A DNA stretch of 43,940 bases from a virus: positions 1 through 43,940 of IMG/VR virus record IMGVR_UViG_3300031403_000017; one strand, given 5' to 3'. Shown here piece after piece: positions 86-6,006 of the stretch. A model generated the notes under the pieces. It was not told the DNA's origin and searched no databases. It saw nothing but the letters and a program-made list of their open reading frames with translations. The stretch's first letter is position 1; each line of letters begins with the position of its first letter. The translations under genes were made by a program, and so were the position numbers.

Positions 86-709
86 ATGAAAATGAACATC
101 TTAAAAGAAGCAGATAAAATCGTTAACGAAAGATCAGAAGAAAAAGATCGACAGTATGGACCATTCTCAGAGGGAATGGCCCGAGCAGCTCAGATCATGT
201 CAGGCGGAACAGGAAAAGATATCACTGCGTCGGATATGTATATCGCTTTAGTCGCTTTAAAACTATCTCGGCAGAGCTATAATCATAAAACTGATAACCT
301 TTTAGACTCCGTCGCTTACTTGGGAGCTCTTAATAATCACATCGAAGAGCAGAACGAGGTAGATGAAAAAGGTAACATAGTGAATAAAAAGAAGTCAGCT
401 TTGCAGTTTGGCACGGAGGTTCACGAAGCAATGGAAAGAAAGTTATTTATCCCCTCGGAATACAGAGGTAGGGGTTGGAAAAGATTAGCAACTATGAGAG
501 ATATATCTGTTAATGGTTTTACTAATGCCAAGAGAATGGGCATGAAAAAAACTGCTATGTCGACGTTGATTTGGTCTATAAACAAGGATTATGGATTGAA
601 GATATTTTGCGATAGAACAAAAGGTGTTACTGGGAATTATGTCATCTGCGGATCCCAACGAGGTGACTTAGATTTAGCTGTTTCAGAATGGGATGCAAAA
701 ATTAGTTAG
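86..709 (+). CDS. DUF6378-like phage protein
   Basis: A 207-residue protein. Residues about 5-90 have the pattern of the phage family DUF6378: a helix with a YGPF-like motif near residue 24, then ITASDMYIALVALKLSR and a D-x-x-LDS segment resembling the family's 'dSl.DiaGYa' ending. Residues 100-207 are a separate basic region that I do not recognise; it carries two Cys (IFCDR and VICGS). The function of the family is unknown; it is common among small early genes of tailed phages. The start is the ATG at 86; another ATG two codons later is equally possible. No Shine-Dalgarno is present. Confidence 0.75.
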   Translation: MKMNILKEADKIVNERSEEKDRQYGPFSEGMARAAQIMSGGTGKDITASDMYIALVALKLSRQSYNHKTDNLLDSVAYLGALNNHIEEQNEVDEKGNIVNKKKSALQFGTEVHEAMERKLFIPSEYRGRGWKRLATMRDISVNGFTNAKRMGMKKTAMSTLIWSINKDYGLKIFCDRTKGVTGNYVICGSQRGDLDLAVSEWDAKIS

Positions 710-1235: not shown

Positions 1236-1487
1236 ATGAAAGGAATATTAATCAAAAAAGATCCGGCAAAGCAAAGTAGGCACGGGGGAGGTGAGTACGT
1301 TAGGTGTCATTTTAAATGCGAAGACGGAAAAACCAGAACTCTAGATGTTTACGAGGGTCACCCAAGGAGCAAAATGTTTTTCCAAACAGGTTTGAAATTA
1401 CAGGGAAGGTATGGGAACTTATCGATTTACAAGGAAAAGTTTATCGATGGCACTTCTAATTTTATTTATTACGGAGTTAAACAATGA
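1236..1487 (+). CDS. Hypothetical protein, 83 aa
   Basis: An unrecognised basic 83-residue protein, rich in beta-prone segments (EYVRCHFKCEDGK, TRTLDVYEGH, NLSIYKEKF) and consistent with a small OB- or beta-barrel-like fold. Its stop overlaps the start of the SGNH-like gene (ATGA at 1484-1487), so it is co-translated with the putative hypermodification operon and may be its first member. Confidence 0.6.
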   Translation: MKGILIKKDPAKQSRHGGGEYVRCHFKCEDGKTRTLDVYEGHPRSKMFFQTGLKLQGRYGNLSIYKEKFIDGTSNFIYYGVKQ

Positions 1488-2446
1488 AAATAGCAATGGT
1501 ATCGGTTTTAGGAAATGTCTCAGAATCTGAGAACCATCACTCAGGTGGATTCACGTGGGTCATGCTGGATCAATGGAAGCAGACTTTTGATGCATTGTTT
1601 CCAGATGATTTCAGTATCGAGATAGAAGTCTGCAATGATTCTTGTAAATGGACCAACTATGATGCTTTAATAGTCAATGAGGGTCCACATTTTAAGAACG
1701 GAGTTTGGAATCTATTCGGGGGAATGAATCAGGTTTTAAAAGATAAACTAAGCGATTTAAACTCTTTCCCCGGAAAGGTCTATTGTTACAAAAATAACGG
1801 AATGTTTGTCCCTGATTACCAAGACCTTTGTGACAAAAGAGGTATGGATTTTGATTTCAAAAAAGAAATTAAGGATATTCAGTTCCCGATAAAAAGCAGA
1901 ATTTTAGAGCTTGGAGATTCCCATGTTTTATCTATCCACAGACCTGGAAATTGCATCGTAAAAGTTGATGGGAAAACTCTTTATGGAATACTTAATCCCA
2001 AAGAGGGAGTTAAGATGCTCGAAGAGGCTTCAAAGTTTTACGACGAAATGGTTATCTATTTTGGAAACATAGATGTTCGTCATCACTTGATGAGACAAGA
2101 GGATCCAGTGGCTAGCACTAAGAGCTTAATGAGTCAATACAAAGGAGTCTTAGAATCGCTTAATTGCAAAGTTACCCTAGTTCATTTGCTCCCAATAGAG
2201 GATGAATCAAGGAAGCTTCCAAAGACTGGTTACTACAAAGGCTCGCCATTTACCGGATCCAGAGAGGAAAGGGAGGATATTAGACAGTTGTTTAATCGAT
2301 GTTTAAATACTATAGCTAGGATCAATGATTATGAAGTTTTAACTTGGGAAGAGTTAGAGCTAGATGAAAACGACGCCCTTAGTTTCAATTGCATGGAATC
2401 GCGTCAATCAGTCCACTTAAGACCTAAGTTCTACAAATTCAAATGA
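1484..2446 (+). CDS. SGNH/GDSL-like hydrolase or acyltransferase
   Basis: A 320-residue protein. Residues 1-135 look like a separate Rossmann-type domain (MKIAMVSVLG start). Residues 138-320 carry the SGNH pattern: block I GDSH at 144-147 (putative nucleophile Ser146), the block III-like motif YFGNIDVRHH at 192-201 with Asn195 and Asp197, and a C-terminal His311 in SVHLRP where the catalytic His is expected; the usual Asp two or three residues before that His is not evident. SGNH enzymes hydrolyse or transfer acyl or sugar-ester groups. Being sandwiched by 4-bp overlaps with the pyrophosphorylase-like gene, it is inferred to act on a modified nucleotide or its precursor rather than on the cell wall. 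Fold assignment is fairly firm, substrate unknown. Confidence 0.7.
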   Translation: MKIAMVSVLGNVSESENHHSGGFTWVMLDQWKQTFDALFPDDFSIEIEVCNDSCKWTNYDALIVNEGPHFKNGVWNLFGGMNQVLKDKLSDLNSFPGKVYCYKNNGMFVPDYQDLCDKRGMDFDFKKEIKDIQFPIKSRILELGDSHVLSIHRPGNCIVKVDGKTLYGILNPKEGVKMLEEASKFYDEMVIYFGNIDVRHHLMRQEDPVASTKSLMSQYKGVLESLNCKVTLVHLLPIEDESRKLPKTGYYKGSPFTGSREEREDIRQLFNRCLNTIARINDYEVLTWEELELDENDALSFNCMESRQSVHLRPKFYKFK

Positions 2447-3486
2447 GATTCAATGTAGATAACGACATGCTAGAAGCTCTAGATGATTACCATGTAAAGA
2501 GCAAAGCAATGCAATCTTATTACTTGGACATGGACAGCAACTGTTTGTGCGAAGTAGATCTAGAGTTTTCCGTAGATGACGACCTGGTTTTTAACGTTCC
2601 AATCTACGACATGTTAGATAGAAAGTACGCAGCATTTAGCTCTCTCACTGAAGCTATAATGAGACCAGATCAAGACCCTAAGCAAAATGGAAGATTTTTT
2701 GAGCATTACAAAAGAGATATGGTGGATAACATGATGCTGTTTTACTTGTTCAGGCTTTGCGGATCAGGCATTAATTATGTCCCAAGGGAGAATAACGGTT
2801 CAGAGCCGATTGGCACTCACGGATTTGGAAACTTCTGGGTAGCTAAAGTGCTAAGAACTTGTCAAATAGAGACCGGTCCTACTGAGTGGTTGATGGCACT
2901 AGAGAATTGGTCAGGGCCTTTCACTGATAGCAAAGGTTATTTACTACCTCAGTTTTCTTACCCTAACCAGAAAGGTGGCCACATGAAGAGGTTTATATTA
3001 GAAAACTCCTGGGACCTTGTTTTCTTTTTACATGATTTCGTTGTTAGTAACAAGCAATTAGAAATATTCGAGATCGTTGACGTAGGCAACGAATGGCTGA
3101 TGTCAAGAGGTTACAAGCGCCAGAACTTCGTTTTAACAGCTTTTGCTATGGATATAGCAGAGTATTACCCTGAGTACGTAGATCCACAATCTAGAACTTA
3201 CTGCGGAAGCAACGCTAAAAAATGTATCAGAAAAATATTTAGCAAAAAAGGCAAGGTATCTGATTTTGATTTCGAAAACGATGTACTGAGATTCCTAGCT
3301 GATAGATATGGATCAACTCCATATTCGGTCGAGGATTCTAGAGCTTGTGATGTTTGGAGGTACTTCAAGGAGTACCAATCACCGGATCACATAAAGAAAA
3401 ATGGCGGAGTAGAGATGCTTAATAACAGCATATTAAAAACAAAGTGGGGAGAAGAAAGTTACTATAATTGGATTAAAAATTTATAA
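2443..3486 (+). CDS. Alpha-glutamyl/putrescinyl thymine pyrophosphorylase-like protein
   Basis: A 347-residue protein matching, from memory of the family, the aGPT-Pplase group (closest in appearance to clade 3), which was identified in phage DNA hypermodification systems. Signature segments are the helix FEHYKRDMVDNMMLFY (86-101), YLFRLCGSGINYV (101-113), the loop GTHGFGNFWVAK (124-135) and a conserved aromatic stretch near 145-165. These proteins are predicted, and for phage relatives shown, to replace an activated (pyrophosphorylated) 5-hydroxymethyl pyrimidine group in DNA with an amine or amino acid. The kinase that makes the activated base is not in this window. It overlaps its upstream neighbour by ATGA and is followed with zero spacing by the papain-like gene. 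Alternatively it could belong to another clade of the same DNA-glycosylase-like fold. Confidence 0.75.
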   Translation: MRFNVDNDMLEALDDYHVKSKAMQSYYLDMDSNCLCEVDLEFSVDDDLVFNVPIYDMLDRKYAAFSSLTEAIMRPDQDPKQNGRFFEHYKRDMVDNMMLFYLFRLCGSGINYVPRENNGSEPIGTHGFGNFWVAKVLRTCQIETGPTEWLMALENWSGPFTDSKGYLLPQFSYPNQKGGHMKRFILENSWDLVFFLHDFVVSNKQLEIFEIVDVGNEWLMSRGYKRQNFVLTAFAMDIAEYYPEYVDPQSRTYCGSNAKKCIRKIFSKKGKVSDFDFENDVLRFLADRYGSTPYSVEDSRACDVWRYFKEYQSPDHIKKNGGVEMLNNSILKTKWGEESYYNWIKNL

Positions 3487-4005
3487 ATGATAAACATTGA
3501 AACCGTATACGAATTCCTAGAAGAGAATCAGAAAGTTTTTGGAAAGTTTGGAACACTTGGAGGAGGAGTAGATCACTCAGTTCACAACTCTGGAGACCTG
3601 GATACTTCATTTCCCTTTGGAAGATGTTTCCAGTGCTGTAACTTCCTTTATTACATGCTCGGAGCTAAAAAAAGAGGTTACCAGTTAAAGATAATTAACT
3701 CGAAGCATATAACCATGTCGTCCTACCCAACTACTCATTGGTTTATCCAAAAGGGAGACGAGATCATAGATGTAACGAGCCACCAGTTCGACTTTAGCTT
3801 GGAAGATGTTTACAAGCTTGGAGTCGAGAGTAACCTTGGTAGAACTAGGTTCATGAAAGGTAAAGAAATAATCGAAGTTGGGGACGAGTTATTTGTACCC
3901 ACTCAGAACACGATGGTGCTCTACGATAAATGGGTCAAGAAATACGGAGTAGTTGAGGACATGACAGATTATTATAATGCTTGGAAAAAATCAAAATGTT
4001 TATAA
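3487..4005 (+). CDS. Papain/transglutaminase-like cysteine enzyme
   Basis: A 172-residue protein with a probable Cys-His-Asp triad of the papain-like fold: Cys47 in FGRCFQCCNFLYYML (N-terminal end of the core helix), His84 in TTHWFIQKG, and Asp95 in IIDVTSHQFDF. The HWF...D-T-x-x-QF pattern is shared with a family of uncharacterised phage and bacterial proteins. Such enzymes act as amidases, peptidases or acyl/amine transferases. The gene abuts the pyrophosphorylase-like gene (stop followed directly by ATG) and overlaps the PLP gene by 10 bases, so a role in trimming or attaching the amino group of a modified base is a reasonable guess. No signal peptide, so not an obvious lysis enzyme. Confidence 0.65.
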   Translation: MINIETVYEFLEENQKVFGKFGTLGGGVDHSVHNSGDLDTSFPFGRCFQCCNFLYYMLGAKKRGYQLKIINSKHITMSSYPTTHWFIQKGDEIIDVTSHQFDFSLEDVYKLGVESNLGRTRFMKGKEIIEVGDELFVPTQNTMVLYDKWVKKYGVVEDMTDYYNAWKKSKCL

Positions 4006-4910
4006 ATAACCAGATCGGAATCGGGAATAACGACTTACAGAATGGGAAAGACCTTGAGTATTACCTAGAGCTAACCAAGGATTTTAAATCTAGTTTGCCA
4101 CCGTTTAAAGTTAAAAACATAGATGGGTTCAATATTATGGACGAATCAGTTTCCTGTCCAGTTGGCTACAAGGCTAGATCTGGGGAGTTCTTGATCCAGA
4201 AGTTAAAATCAGAGGGCTTCACTGAAGTGGTATATGTCCAACCTAGACAGGGATTCGCTGGGATAAGTTTATCATGGCTTTGCAAGAAATATGACATGAA
4301 CTTAACTTTGGTCATGCCATCTTCTAAACAAGTATCTGATCATCAGGCGCTCTGCATAGAATACGGAGCTAAACCGCTGTTCTTGAGGATTGCTTCTATG
4401 CCAAATGCGAACAGAGCTGCTAAGTTATACGCAGAAGGTGGTTCACATAGAGCTTATGTCCCTCTAGGCTTAAACCATGAATACGTGGTAGCCGGAGGAG
4501 TCAGAGCTTTTCATGACTTTTTCAAAGGAAAAGAACATCCTAATTTTATGTGGTGCGTAATCTCTACTGGCGTACTCTTAAGGACTATGCAAATAGCATT
4601 GCCAGATACTAATTTCAAAGCGATAGCAGTCTCTAGGAATATACAACAAGGAGAGCTTGGAAAAGCTAAGTTCTATAGTTACCATAAGCCTTTCCTAGCT
4701 AAGTCAGACGTAATACCAACTAAGTTTAACTGTGAACCATGTTACGACTCAAAGGGTTATGATATTATGACAAAAGAGGGAAACGAAGGTGATTGGTTTT
4801 TCAGCGTCGCTGGAGATGCTCCAGTTCCGACTATAGATAAAACAAAGATAAACTCGTTCAGGGAATGGGGTGACCACTTTGATTTTGACGTAGAAGGTAT
4901 AAAGATATAA
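3996..4910 (+). CDS. Fold-type II PLP-dependent enzyme
   Basis: A 304-residue member of the tryptophan synthase beta / cysteine synthase superfamily. The pattern DESVSCPVGYKAR (49-61) matches the family's lysine loop, with Lys59 as the likely Schiff-base residue. The segment VQPRQGFAGISLSWL (81-95) takes the place of the substrate-binding Ser-Gly-Asn-x-Gly loop, with Pro-Arg-Gln replacing the usual residues. LTLVMPSSKQVSDHQ and EYGAKPLFL follow in the normal order. I use the ATG at 3996, overlapping the previous stop; an upstream TTG would add five residues. The enzyme is shorter than typical synthases and the changed loop suggests a non-standard substrate. PLP enzymes are known in some thymidine hypermodification clusters, so action on an amino-acid-bearing base is inferred. 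Confidence 0.75.
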   Translation: MFINNQIGIGNNDLQNGKDLEYYLELTKDFKSSLPPFKVKNIDGFNIMDESVSCPVGYKARSGEFLIQKLKSEGFTEVVYVQPRQGFAGISLSWLCKKYDMNLTLVMPSSKQVSDHQALCIEYGAKPLFLRIASMPNANRAAKLYAEGGSHRAYVPLGLNHEYVVAGGVRAFHDFFKGKEHPNFMWCVISTGVLLRTMQIALPDTNFKAIAVSRNIQQGELGKAKFYSYHKPFLAKSDVIPTKFNCEPCYDSKGYDIMTKEGNEGDWFFSVAGDAPVPTIDKTKINSFREWGDHFDFDVEGIKI

Positions 4911-4916
4911 AAAAGA

Positions 4917-4945
4917 TTTTACAATATAAAAAAGTATATTATAAT
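4917..4945 (+). promoter_or_regulatory. Palindromic promoter/operator element A
   Basis: An imperfect copy of a six-times repeated intergenic element: palindrome TTTTACAATATAAAA at 4917-4931 (5-bp arms) followed by a TATAAT-like box at 4940-4945. It lies 6 bases after the PLP gene and 29 bases before the ribbon-helix-helix gene, so it is well placed as an autoregulated promoter. A promoter role is inferred from position and recurrence. Confidence 0.55.
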
Positions 4946-4974
4946 TTTTACAAATAACAATTAACAAGGAACTA

Positions 4975-5115
4975 ATGACAGCGCATACTACTATCAATAT
5001 TAAAAAAAGCACTAAGAAGCGCCTGGACGACTTTTGTGACAAAAATCAAAAAGTTAGATCTGGAGTTCTCGATGTAGCTCTTAATAGCCACTTGGACAAA
5101 GTAGAGTCTAAGTAG
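4975..5115 (+). CDS. Ribbon-helix-helix (Arc/CopG-like) transcription regulator
   Basis: A 46-residue open frame starting at the ATG at 4975 and ending with TAG at 5113-5115. The sequence has the ribbon-helix-helix layout: beta strand HTTINIKKS (residues 4-12), helix 1 TKKRLDDFCDKNQ (13-25), turn VRSG, helix 2 VLDVALNSHLDKV (32-44). The RSG at the start of helix 2 is where the family usually has a Ser-x-x-[IL] cap. Members of this fold bind short palindromes as dimers or tetramers. The gene stands directly downstream of one copy of the recurring TTTTAC-n3-GTAAAA palindrome, which makes it the best candidate to bind all six copies. It interrupts the putative hypermodification operon. The fold assignment is good; the target is inferred. 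Confidence 0.75.
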   Translation: MTAHTTINIKKSTKKRLDDFCDKNQKVRSGVLDVALNSHLDKVESK

Positions 5116-5131
5116 AAACTTAATCAGTAAA

Positions 5132-5144
5132 TTTTAATCCCAAC
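5132..5144 (+). promoter_or_regulatory. Recurring TTTAATCCCAAC leader before a start codon
   Basis: The motif TTTTAATCCCAAC ends 4 nt before the ATG of the thymidylate synthase-like gene. The same motif precedes three other lead genes at the same spacing. It does not resemble a Shine-Dalgarno sequence. It may be a non-canonical translation signal or a transcript start. Confidence 0.5.
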
Positions 5145-5148
5145 TAAA

Positions 5149-6006
5149 ATGAAGATCACAGGACTAGGCTTCCATGACACTTACGAGCAAGCAGCAAGAG
5201 AGATATATTTGAAACCAGATTTCGTTTCCAATCCCAGGGGAATGGAAGTTAAAGAGAAGCTTGGTTTGCACATGGAGATATTAAACCCTTCTCATAATTT
5301 GTTCGAAAATAAACACAGAGGCGTCCCCCTGAAGTACTTAGCTAATGAGTTAGTCCTTTATTTTGCTGGAAAATACAACGTATCTTCACTTGGAGATGAA
5401 GCTAGTTTCGGAGAAGCTTCTAGTTTCTGGAAAAAGATCGCTAAAGAAGATGGAACGGTTAACTCGGCTTATGGTTACTTATTATTTAAGCACCAAGCTT
5501 ACGAGCAGCAAACCCAATGGGATTGGATTAAGAATAATTTGATAGCTGACAAAGATTCTCGCCAAGCCATTGCTCACATCAATAGACCTTTTCATCAGTA
5601 CGATGGAAACAAAGATTTCGTTTGTACTATGAGTTACCATTTTTTCATCAGAGAAAATAAGTTGCACATGCACGTTCACCGAAGAAGCCAGGACATGGTA
5701 TTTGGTATAACTTATGATGTTCCTTGGGAGCTACTTTTGATGCAATGTATGGTCAAGGAGCTTAAAAGTCATTACCCAGAGTTGTCTTTAGGATCTTATA
5801 ATTTATTCATTGGATCTGCTCATATTTACCAGAGAGATTACGATACTATTTATAAGATGCTCATGAATGAGTTTACTCCATATAGAATCAGTATTGGGAG
5901 CGTAAACCCTATTATGCACAAAGAAGTGAACAAGATGGCATCCGATAGGAATTACAAGTACAAAGGTGGTAAAAATTTCTTTAGTTTCTTAAGCGATAAT
6001 AGATAA
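5149..6006 (+). CDS. Thymidylate synthase-family dNMP (hydroxy)methyltransferase, predicted dCMP type
   Basis: A 285-residue protein of the thymidylate synthase / dCMP hydroxymethylase family. Visible features in order are Glu67 in ANELVLYF (catalytic Glu of the HELLWFL motif), SAYGYLLF (106-113), phosphate-binding Arg138 in DSRQA, the catalytic Cys159 in DFVCTMSYHFFIR, Arg179-Ser180-x-Asp182 in HRRSQDM, and the terminal GSAHIY (222-227). At the position of the dUMP-specific Asn in the GLPFNI motif this protein has Asp190 (FGITYDV). In phage T4 dCMP hydroxymethylase the equivalent residue is also Asp and selects cytosine. The enzyme is therefore predicted to use dCMP and, in a hypermodification operon, to make a 5-hydroxymethyl nucleotide. 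The family is clear; the exact product is inferred. The TAATG at its end couples it to the next gene. Confidence 0.8.
   Translation: MKITGLGFHDTYEQAAREIYLKPDFVSNPRGMEVKEKLGLHMEILNPSHNLFENKHRGVPLKYLANELVLYFAGKYNVSSLGDEASFGEASSFWKKIAKEDGTVNSAYGYLLFKHQAYEQQTQWDWIKNNLIADKDSRQAIAHINRPFHQYDGNKDFVCTMSYHFFIRENKLHMHVHRRSQDMVFGITYDVPWELLLMQCMVKELKSHYPELSLGSYNLFIGSAHIYQRDYDTIYKMLMNEFTPYRISIGSVNPIMHKEVNKMASDRNYKYKGGKNFFSFLSDNR

Follow-up and report, generated by a model that had tools for sequence, protein, structure and literature searches.

The window analysed here is the whole IMG/VR virus record IMGVR_UViG_3300031403_000017 (43,940 bp), which close to its start contains a cassette of enzyme genes for a putative DNA base hypermodification pathway. 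All genes of the cassette lie on the plus strand. The first (1484..2446) codes for a protein of 320 amino acids (aa), in which a domain similar to the N-terminus of T4 beta-glucosyltransferase (BGT) is followed by SGNH motifs with Ser146, Asn195 and His311 (phrog_13881, 1e-40), and which is called the BGT-N/SGNH protein below. It is followed by the gene for a helical, putative DNA-modifying enzyme of 347 aa (2443..3486), which is predicted to have the fold of an amino-acid:DNA transferase (ADDT), by that for a papain-like or YunG-like Cys-His-Asp protein of 172 aa (3487..4005) and by that for a fold-type II pyridoxal phosphate (PLP) enzyme of 304 aa, counted from the ATG (3996..4910). The last gene (5149..6006) codes for a thymidylate synthase (TS) homologue of 285 aa of the dCMP hydroxymethylase type, with Glu67, Cys159 and Asp190. 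The first two open reading frames (ORFs) overlap by 4 bp, the third follows the second with 0 bp in between, and the third and fourth overlap by 10 bp. A first-pass annotation, made from the sequence alone, had described five tightly spaced enzyme genes as a DNA base hypermodification operon with an unusual enzyme set; the coordinates and overlaps were reproduced from the sequence, and all motifs that it named were found again, namely GDSH (144-147), GNID (194-197) and the C-terminal His311 in the first protein, FRLCGSG and GTHGFGN in the 347-aa protein, C47/H84/D95 in the papain-like protein and Lys59 in the PLP enzyme. It is concluded here that the cassette very probably serves to hypermodify cytosine in the DNA of the phage itself.

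Conservation of the Cassette in Viral Genomes

With the PLP protein as query, 72 viral loci were identified, on which the other window proteins were then run by tblastn. The neighbourhood consisting of a DUF6378 protein, the SGNH protein, the ADDT-like protein, the PLP enzyme and the TS homologue is kept in nearly all of these loci, and an ADDT-like gene is present in 71 of the 72, the exception (L052) being cut at the end of its contig. As single queries, the 347-aa and the 172-aa proteins revealed no relatives, whether in viral contigs or among cultured phages. When the 347-aa family was aligned and the alignment used instead, 213 loci were confirmed by one pattern scan, and 80 of the 213 were kept. 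For the gene counts, profiles built on family alignments were used, with the 150 loci that contain an ADDT-like gene as the base; the PLP gene was identified in 148 of them, the SGNH gene in 140 and the dCMP hydroxymethylase gene in 122. The residue counts given below refer to dereplicated family members (n = 66 for the SGNH, 49 for the PLP, 63 for the TS and 8 for the papain-like family).

The order of the genes in these approximately 150 viral loci is BGT-N/SGNH, ADDT-like and PLP, usually followed by the dCMP hydroxymethylase. All of the 410 neighbouring gene pairs checked are located on the same strand, and at both the SGNH-ADDT and the ADDT-PLP junction the median gap is -1 bp. The cassette is a real unit and not a chance association. 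Most of the related records are genome fragments; some cassette records have a size of 136-183 kb, and the cassette is therefore spread over different phages. Among prokaryotes, for which 84,980 genomes were scanned, no further example came to light. Mirror-tree correlations of the core genes were positive but modest (0.16-0.58) and, obtained with truncated ORFs and no control gene, they are not used as evidence.

Cytosine as the Probable Modified Base

The TS homologue was recognised by its Pfam model with an E-value of 1.4e-19. The best match of the family profile in the PDB was T4 dCMP hydroxymethylase (1b49, 2e-36), with the CMP hydroxymethylase MilA among the next, and an hhalign comparison to T4 gp42 gave 99.8% and 2e-28. 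Asp190, which stands at position 177 of E. coli TS, where Asn is found, is invariant in the family (63/63), as is the catalytic Cys159 (63/63), and position 160, corresponding to His147 in E. coli, is occupied by Thr or Asn. In the MetaGPA study, these two TS positions (147 and 177) were shown to distinguish modified-cytosine contigs from others, and the exchange Asn177Asp was described to change the substrate of TS from dUMP to dCMP (PMC8670742). The Asn at position 177 that marks a dUMP-type hydroxymethylase was found in none of the 63 members, all of which have Asp. Near the cassette, a MazG-type pyrophosphohydrolase is encoded in 89 loci and a dCMP deaminase in 50; the TS neighbours in modified contigs include phosphoribosyl-ATP pyrophosphohydrolase and dCMP deaminase domains (PMC8670742).

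Because the TS homologue is of the T4 dCMP hydroxymethylase type and has the invariant, dCMP-selecting Asp190, the modified base is most likely cytosine, reached via 5-hydroxymethylcytosine (hmC). The residues do not decide between hydroxymethylation and methylation of dCMP, and the context of the BGT-N domain favours hydroxymethylation. From the earlier proposal that a 5-hydroxymethyl pyrimidine is made, the hydroxymethylase-type enzyme was retained, and the product is most likely hmC, in contrast to the thymine pathway, for which ADDT, aGPT-PPlase and PLP enzymes are known. Downstream of the dCMP hydroxymethylase gene, a second and more distant TS-family gene was observed in eight loci (L107-L109, L120, L131, L139, L144 and L155; hmmsearch E about 1e-7 to 1e-12), which perhaps codes for an ordinary thymidylate synthase.

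The BGT-N/SGNH Protein and Its Fusions

For the N-terminal approximately 110 aa of the 320-aa protein, hhalign identified a similarity to T4 BGT with 94.7% and E = 6.1e-8, in an alignment that includes the motifs MKIA, YD-LIV and F-GG. In a control with BGT residues 1-170, a score of 55.3 was obtained, as compared to 25.3 for the best of 100 shuffles, and among 195 background ORFs the SGNH protein was an outlier, the sole higher scorer being a true homologue. Judged by these profile comparisons, the N-terminus is homologous to the acceptor-side domain of T4 BGT. The alignment ends at BGT residue 101; the C-terminal UDP-glucose-binding domain of T4 BGT is not present, and the remainder of the protein bears the SGNH motifs. 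The blocks GDSH, G168, GNID and SVH are conserved, with S146, N195 and H311 present in 66/66 members.

In two lineages the SGNH protein is fused to an ADDT-type domain. At locus L085, the SGNH and ADDT-like proteins are joined in one ORF of 712 aa without a Walker A motif. In Aeromonas phage 31, PHG31ORF233c (L006, 6001-8388, 795 aa) consists of a BGT-N/SGNH part and a C-terminal HMUDK_hel-like domain, again without Walker A; the phage records with homologues comprise 38 from Aeromonas and 2 from Stenotrophomonas. The T4-like Aeromonas phages 31, 44RR2.8t and 25 have the BGT-N/SGNH protein in common with the window, with the difference that theirs is fused to the HMUDK_hel-like domain. Aeromonas phage 31 carries a T4-type dNMP kinase, and a PLP gene of the window family was not found in it. 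PHG31ORF233c may be a pointer to how T4-like Aeromonas phages decorate their own DNA. A stand-alone BGT-N/SGNH protein, ORF-050, is encoded in the 225-kb Tenacibaculum phage PTm1 (L201, 9965-10984) directly after a ribonucleotide reductase gene; neither an ADDT nor a PLP enzyme is named among its annotated neighbours. A functional study of the Aeromonas 795-aa protein or of PTm1 ORF-050 was not found in the literature searched.

The 347-aa ADDT-Like Protein

The AlphaFold2 model of the 347-aa protein had a predicted local distance difference test score (pLDDT) of 77.8 and a predicted template modelling score (pTM) of 0.81. A Foldseek search of BFVD with this model gave a best match of 4.3e-12 to a protein labelled as ADDT in UniProt, and further matches to the 5-hydroxymethyldeoxyuridine (5-hmdU) DNA kinase of SP10 (1.2e-3), to aGPT-PPlase clade 1 (3.8e-3) and to helical 5-hmdU kinase domains. 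Matches to PDB structures were weak, with the DNA glycosylases AGOG and TAG among them. A weak HMUDK_hel match was obtained for the family member at L116 (E = 0.001 within its record and 0.031 alone). Polar residues are strongly conserved in the ADDT-like protein of the window-type cassettes. The protein is thus predicted to have the fold of the superfamily that comprises the amino-acid:DNA transferases, aGPT-PPlase and the HMUDK helical domains, and the aGPT-PPlase-type fold that the first-pass annotation had read from the gene at 2443 is borne out by structure prediction and Foldseek, though the protein stays under all Pfam cut-offs. By its context, the protein probably has an ADDT-type role, and it lies outside the Pfam ADDT family as defined.

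The PLP Enzyme

The PLP enzyme matched PF00291 (PALP) with 2.3e-8 and 34.2 bits, just under the cut-off of 35, phrog_7093 with 5.9e-17 and the serine dehydratase-like protein 2rkb in the PDB with 1.3e-5. The residues K59, which forms the Schiff base, Y250, D251 and K253 are each conserved in 49/49 members, in agreement with the proposed fold-type II enzyme with Lys59. In Pseudomonas phage M6, the ADDT gp51 (Pfam, 1.4e-46) and the PALP protein gp52 are encoded as an adjoining pair, and hhalign aligned the PLP family of the cassette to the gp52 family over 211 columns (95.2%, E = 2.8e-8), including the C-terminal motif C-x-x-x-YD-x-K. In Erythrobacter phage R6L (L002, 6822-9236), the motifs of a DNA methyltransferase fused to ParB flank a related PLP domain. 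This arrangement fits with a PLP enzyme acting directly on a DNA base, and the ParB-methyltransferase-PLP protein suggests a further base modification.

Proposed Pathway and Alternatives

The conserved core, the dCMP-type hydroxymethylase, the ADDT-like fold and the M6-related PLP enzyme together support the assignment of the cassette as a DNA base hypermodification operon. It is likely that an amino-acid-type substituent is formed on cytosine by the ADDT-like and PLP enzymes with the action of the SGNH protein. For the individual steps, the following order is proposed. The gp42-type enzyme would convert dCMP to 5-hydroxymethyl-dCMP, a step well supported by sequence, and the product would then be polymerised into DNA. 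The BGT-N/SGNH protein would dock on hmC in DNA through the domain shared with BGT, and while this docking is supported, the chemistry is inferred: an acyl-enzyme of the SGNH domain would act on the hydroxymethyl oxygen, most likely by esterification, which would create a leaving group and so fill the role that the P-loop kinase has in the thymine pathways. The ADDT-like enzyme, with its DNA-glycosylase-like architecture, would flip the activated base and exchange the leaving group for an amino acid, as suggested by fold and context. From the relationship to M6 gp52, the PLP enzyme would alter the amino-acid substituent by decarboxylation, elimination or rearrangement. In a minority of phages, the papain-like enzyme might optionally trim or N-acylate the substituent. 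The modified DNA would thereby be shielded from host nucleases. As a complete route, this kinase-free sequence, in which an SGNH acyltransferase guided to hmC by half a glucosyltransferase makes an ester that is swapped for an amino acid and then tailored to an undescribed base, is put forward tentatively.

Several points weigh against it. The chemistry is a prediction from sequence, and the SGNH domain was assigned by motifs, with a weak match to the Pfam model Lipase_GDSL (E = 0.12, and 0.0081 for the best member) and no match in a PDB profile search with the SGNH protein. E305...H311 stands where the usual SGNH enzyme has D-x-x-H, and the activation of a base for substitution is not known to us from any enzyme of the SGNH type. 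The ADDT link of the 347-aa protein is drawn from the predicted structure and weak matches: no Pfam family matched this protein, the ADDT model PF18724 (cut-off 26.2 bits) was unmatched in the window and 20 related records at E<=1-10, and hhalign gave no signal between the ADDT-like family and M6 ADDT or HMUDK_hel. A hydroxymethyl-dCMP kinase of the T4 gp1 type was not found in the window or in the viral-contig relatives tested, most of which are fragments.

The activation step is the point at which the strongest alternative departs. According to it, the same cytosine hypermodification would be activated in another way, by a distant kinase or by carbamoylation to 5-carbamoyloxymethylcytosine, and the SGNH protein would act late, as an esterase or acyltransferase by which the finished substituent is edited. 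This is a possible but doubtful reading. The three largest relatives (136-183 kb; G006, G008 and G012, the records of L101, L112 and L133) all have a gene for a Carbam_trans_N protein, which may be an hmC carbamoyltransferase, an enzyme of this kind occurs in modified environmental phages (PMC8670742), and with most records being fragments a remote kinase is conceivable. However, in M6-type ADDT loci the P-loop protein gp54 and the adjoining helical gp55 are present in 35/39, and a profile of the gp54-type kinase found it near 0/150 cassettes. Within 4 kb of the 150 cassettes, ORFs of 100-400 aa with a Walker A motif are nearly all terminase-like or helicase-like, and in the window the motif is confined to the terminase, to Sak4 and to one short frame that is probably spurious. 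HMUDK_hel gave only weak matches, to the ADDT-like gene itself or to the Aeromonas fusion. The kinase that the first-pass annotation had placed outside the window thus gained no support. In addition, the SGNH gene is a core gene in nearly every locus and not optional, and its product has a BGT-like N-terminus and is fused to a helical transferase domain, which also argues against a plain tailoring esterase. Given its fusions to ADDT-type domains, which occur in two lineages, the SGNH protein probably takes the place of the kinase, perhaps by acylating hmC to provide the leaving group.

A different division of labour, in which the main decoration is an acyl or aminoacyl ester that the SGNH protein attaches directly to hmC, with base flipping or DNA binding as the sole task of the ADDT-like protein, is considered unlikely. 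The kinase-less SGNH-helical fusions, and the T4-like Aeromonas phages that have the fusion but not the PLP gene of the window family, would agree with it; against it speaks that, in window-type cassettes, polar residues of the ADDT-like protein are strongly conserved and the PLP gene is hardly ever missing. A thymine pathway via 5-hydroxymethyluracil as in the phages M6, ViI and phiW-14, with which these families are associated in textbooks, would explain the ADDT-PLP adjacency and the relationship to the M6 PLP enzyme, but is very improbable with Asp190 invariant, T4 dCMP hydroxymethylase as the closest solved relative, an hmdU kinase not found in the cassettes and a BGT-like, hmC-recognising domain present. 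A target other than DNA, such as glycans on the host surface or a pool of small molecules, is highly improbable: SGNH, PLP and papain-like enzymes are in general frequent in cell-envelope and natural-product chemistry, but the linkage seen here, to a dCMP hydroxymethylase, to a helical enzyme that resembles DNA glycosylases and to a domain like that of BGT, is constant.

Accessory Genes and the Remainder of the Window

The papain-like gene was identified in 17 loci (the window and 16 others), elsewhere usually after the PLP gene and in the window before it. C47, H84 and D95 are conserved in 8/8 members, in Pfam the papain-like and YunG models were matched only weakly, and the structure model was unusable (pLDDT 40.6). 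The protein is regarded as optional, a putative tailoring enzyme outside the core. The DUF6378 protein (86..709, plus strand; PF19905, E = 1.6e-10) has homologues just upstream of the SGNH gene in most of 132 loci, and in L050 and L061 the DUF6378 gene adjoins the dCMP hydroxymethylase gene. A nucleotide-pool role is possible; considered as a dCTPase candidate, the protein had no detectable match to MazG, T4 gp56 or the PDB. A small ORF of 46 aa on the plus strand (4975..5115), a putative regulator with a weak match to phrog_2727 (6.7e-4), lies outside the conserved cassette. Other phage genes in the window code for a terminase, a portal protein, a capsid protein, Sak4 and a DnaD-like protein, and PADLOC revealed no matches to defence families.

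Comparison to Known Systems

To our knowledge, wherever phage DNA is hypermodified with an amino acid or amine by enzymes of this superfamily, this takes place on thymine, via a phosphorylated hydroxymethyl group. Base hypermodification by ADDT and PLP enzymes is known for thymine, and the cassette departs from it in that its predicted substrate is cytosine, that it has the BGT-N/SGNH protein and that no kinase was found. In phage M6, which makes 5-(2-aminoethyl)deoxyuridine (PMC6449724), an ADDT gene likewise precedes a gene for a fold-type II PLP enzyme of a related subfamily, and a TS-homologue hydroxymethylase is present. M6 starts from hmdU and has the P-loop protein gp54, the HMUDK_hel protein gp55 and gp53 (annotated as DNA repair photolyase), whereas the window has a cytosine-type hydroxymethylase, no kinase that could be found, an SGNH protein with a BGT-like domain and an ADDT-like protein without detectable similarity to gp51. 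The dCMP hydroxymethylase and the BGT N-terminal domain are shared with the glucosylation of hmC in T4 by gp42 and BGT, but in the window the SGNH domain replaces the sugar-nucleotide half of BGT, and the ADDT-like and PLP enzymes are additional. The 5-carbamoyloxymethylcytosine system (PMC8670742) resembles the cassette in its cytosine-type TS with Asp177, in its dCMP deaminase and pyrophosphohydrolase neighbours and in the post-replicative decoration of hmC; it uses other transferases, and no carbamoyltransferase is present in the window. In the CmoX/CmoY system for the glycine amide of 5-carboxymethylcytosine (PMC12783734), an amino acid is also attached to a C5 handle of cytosine in phage DNA. 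There, the handle is derived from a methyltransferase dependent on carboxy-S-adenosylmethionine and is joined by an ATP amide ligase, and these enzymes are unrelated to those of the window. The earlier remark that the enzyme combination could not be matched to a described pathway holds for the literature searched, in which SGNH, hydroxymethylcytosine and phage did not occur together in any paper.

The cassette, whose lineage is common in environmental phage contigs, points to thymine-type amino-acid chemistry that is carried out on cytosine and differs in its activation step. The SGNH-helical half of the system occurs in cultured T4-like Aeromonas phages, so that the question is open to direct study. 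If the proposal is true, it would imply a new DNA base, an enzyme in which SGNH chemistry is grafted onto a BGT-like reader of hmC, and a likely role in counter-defence.

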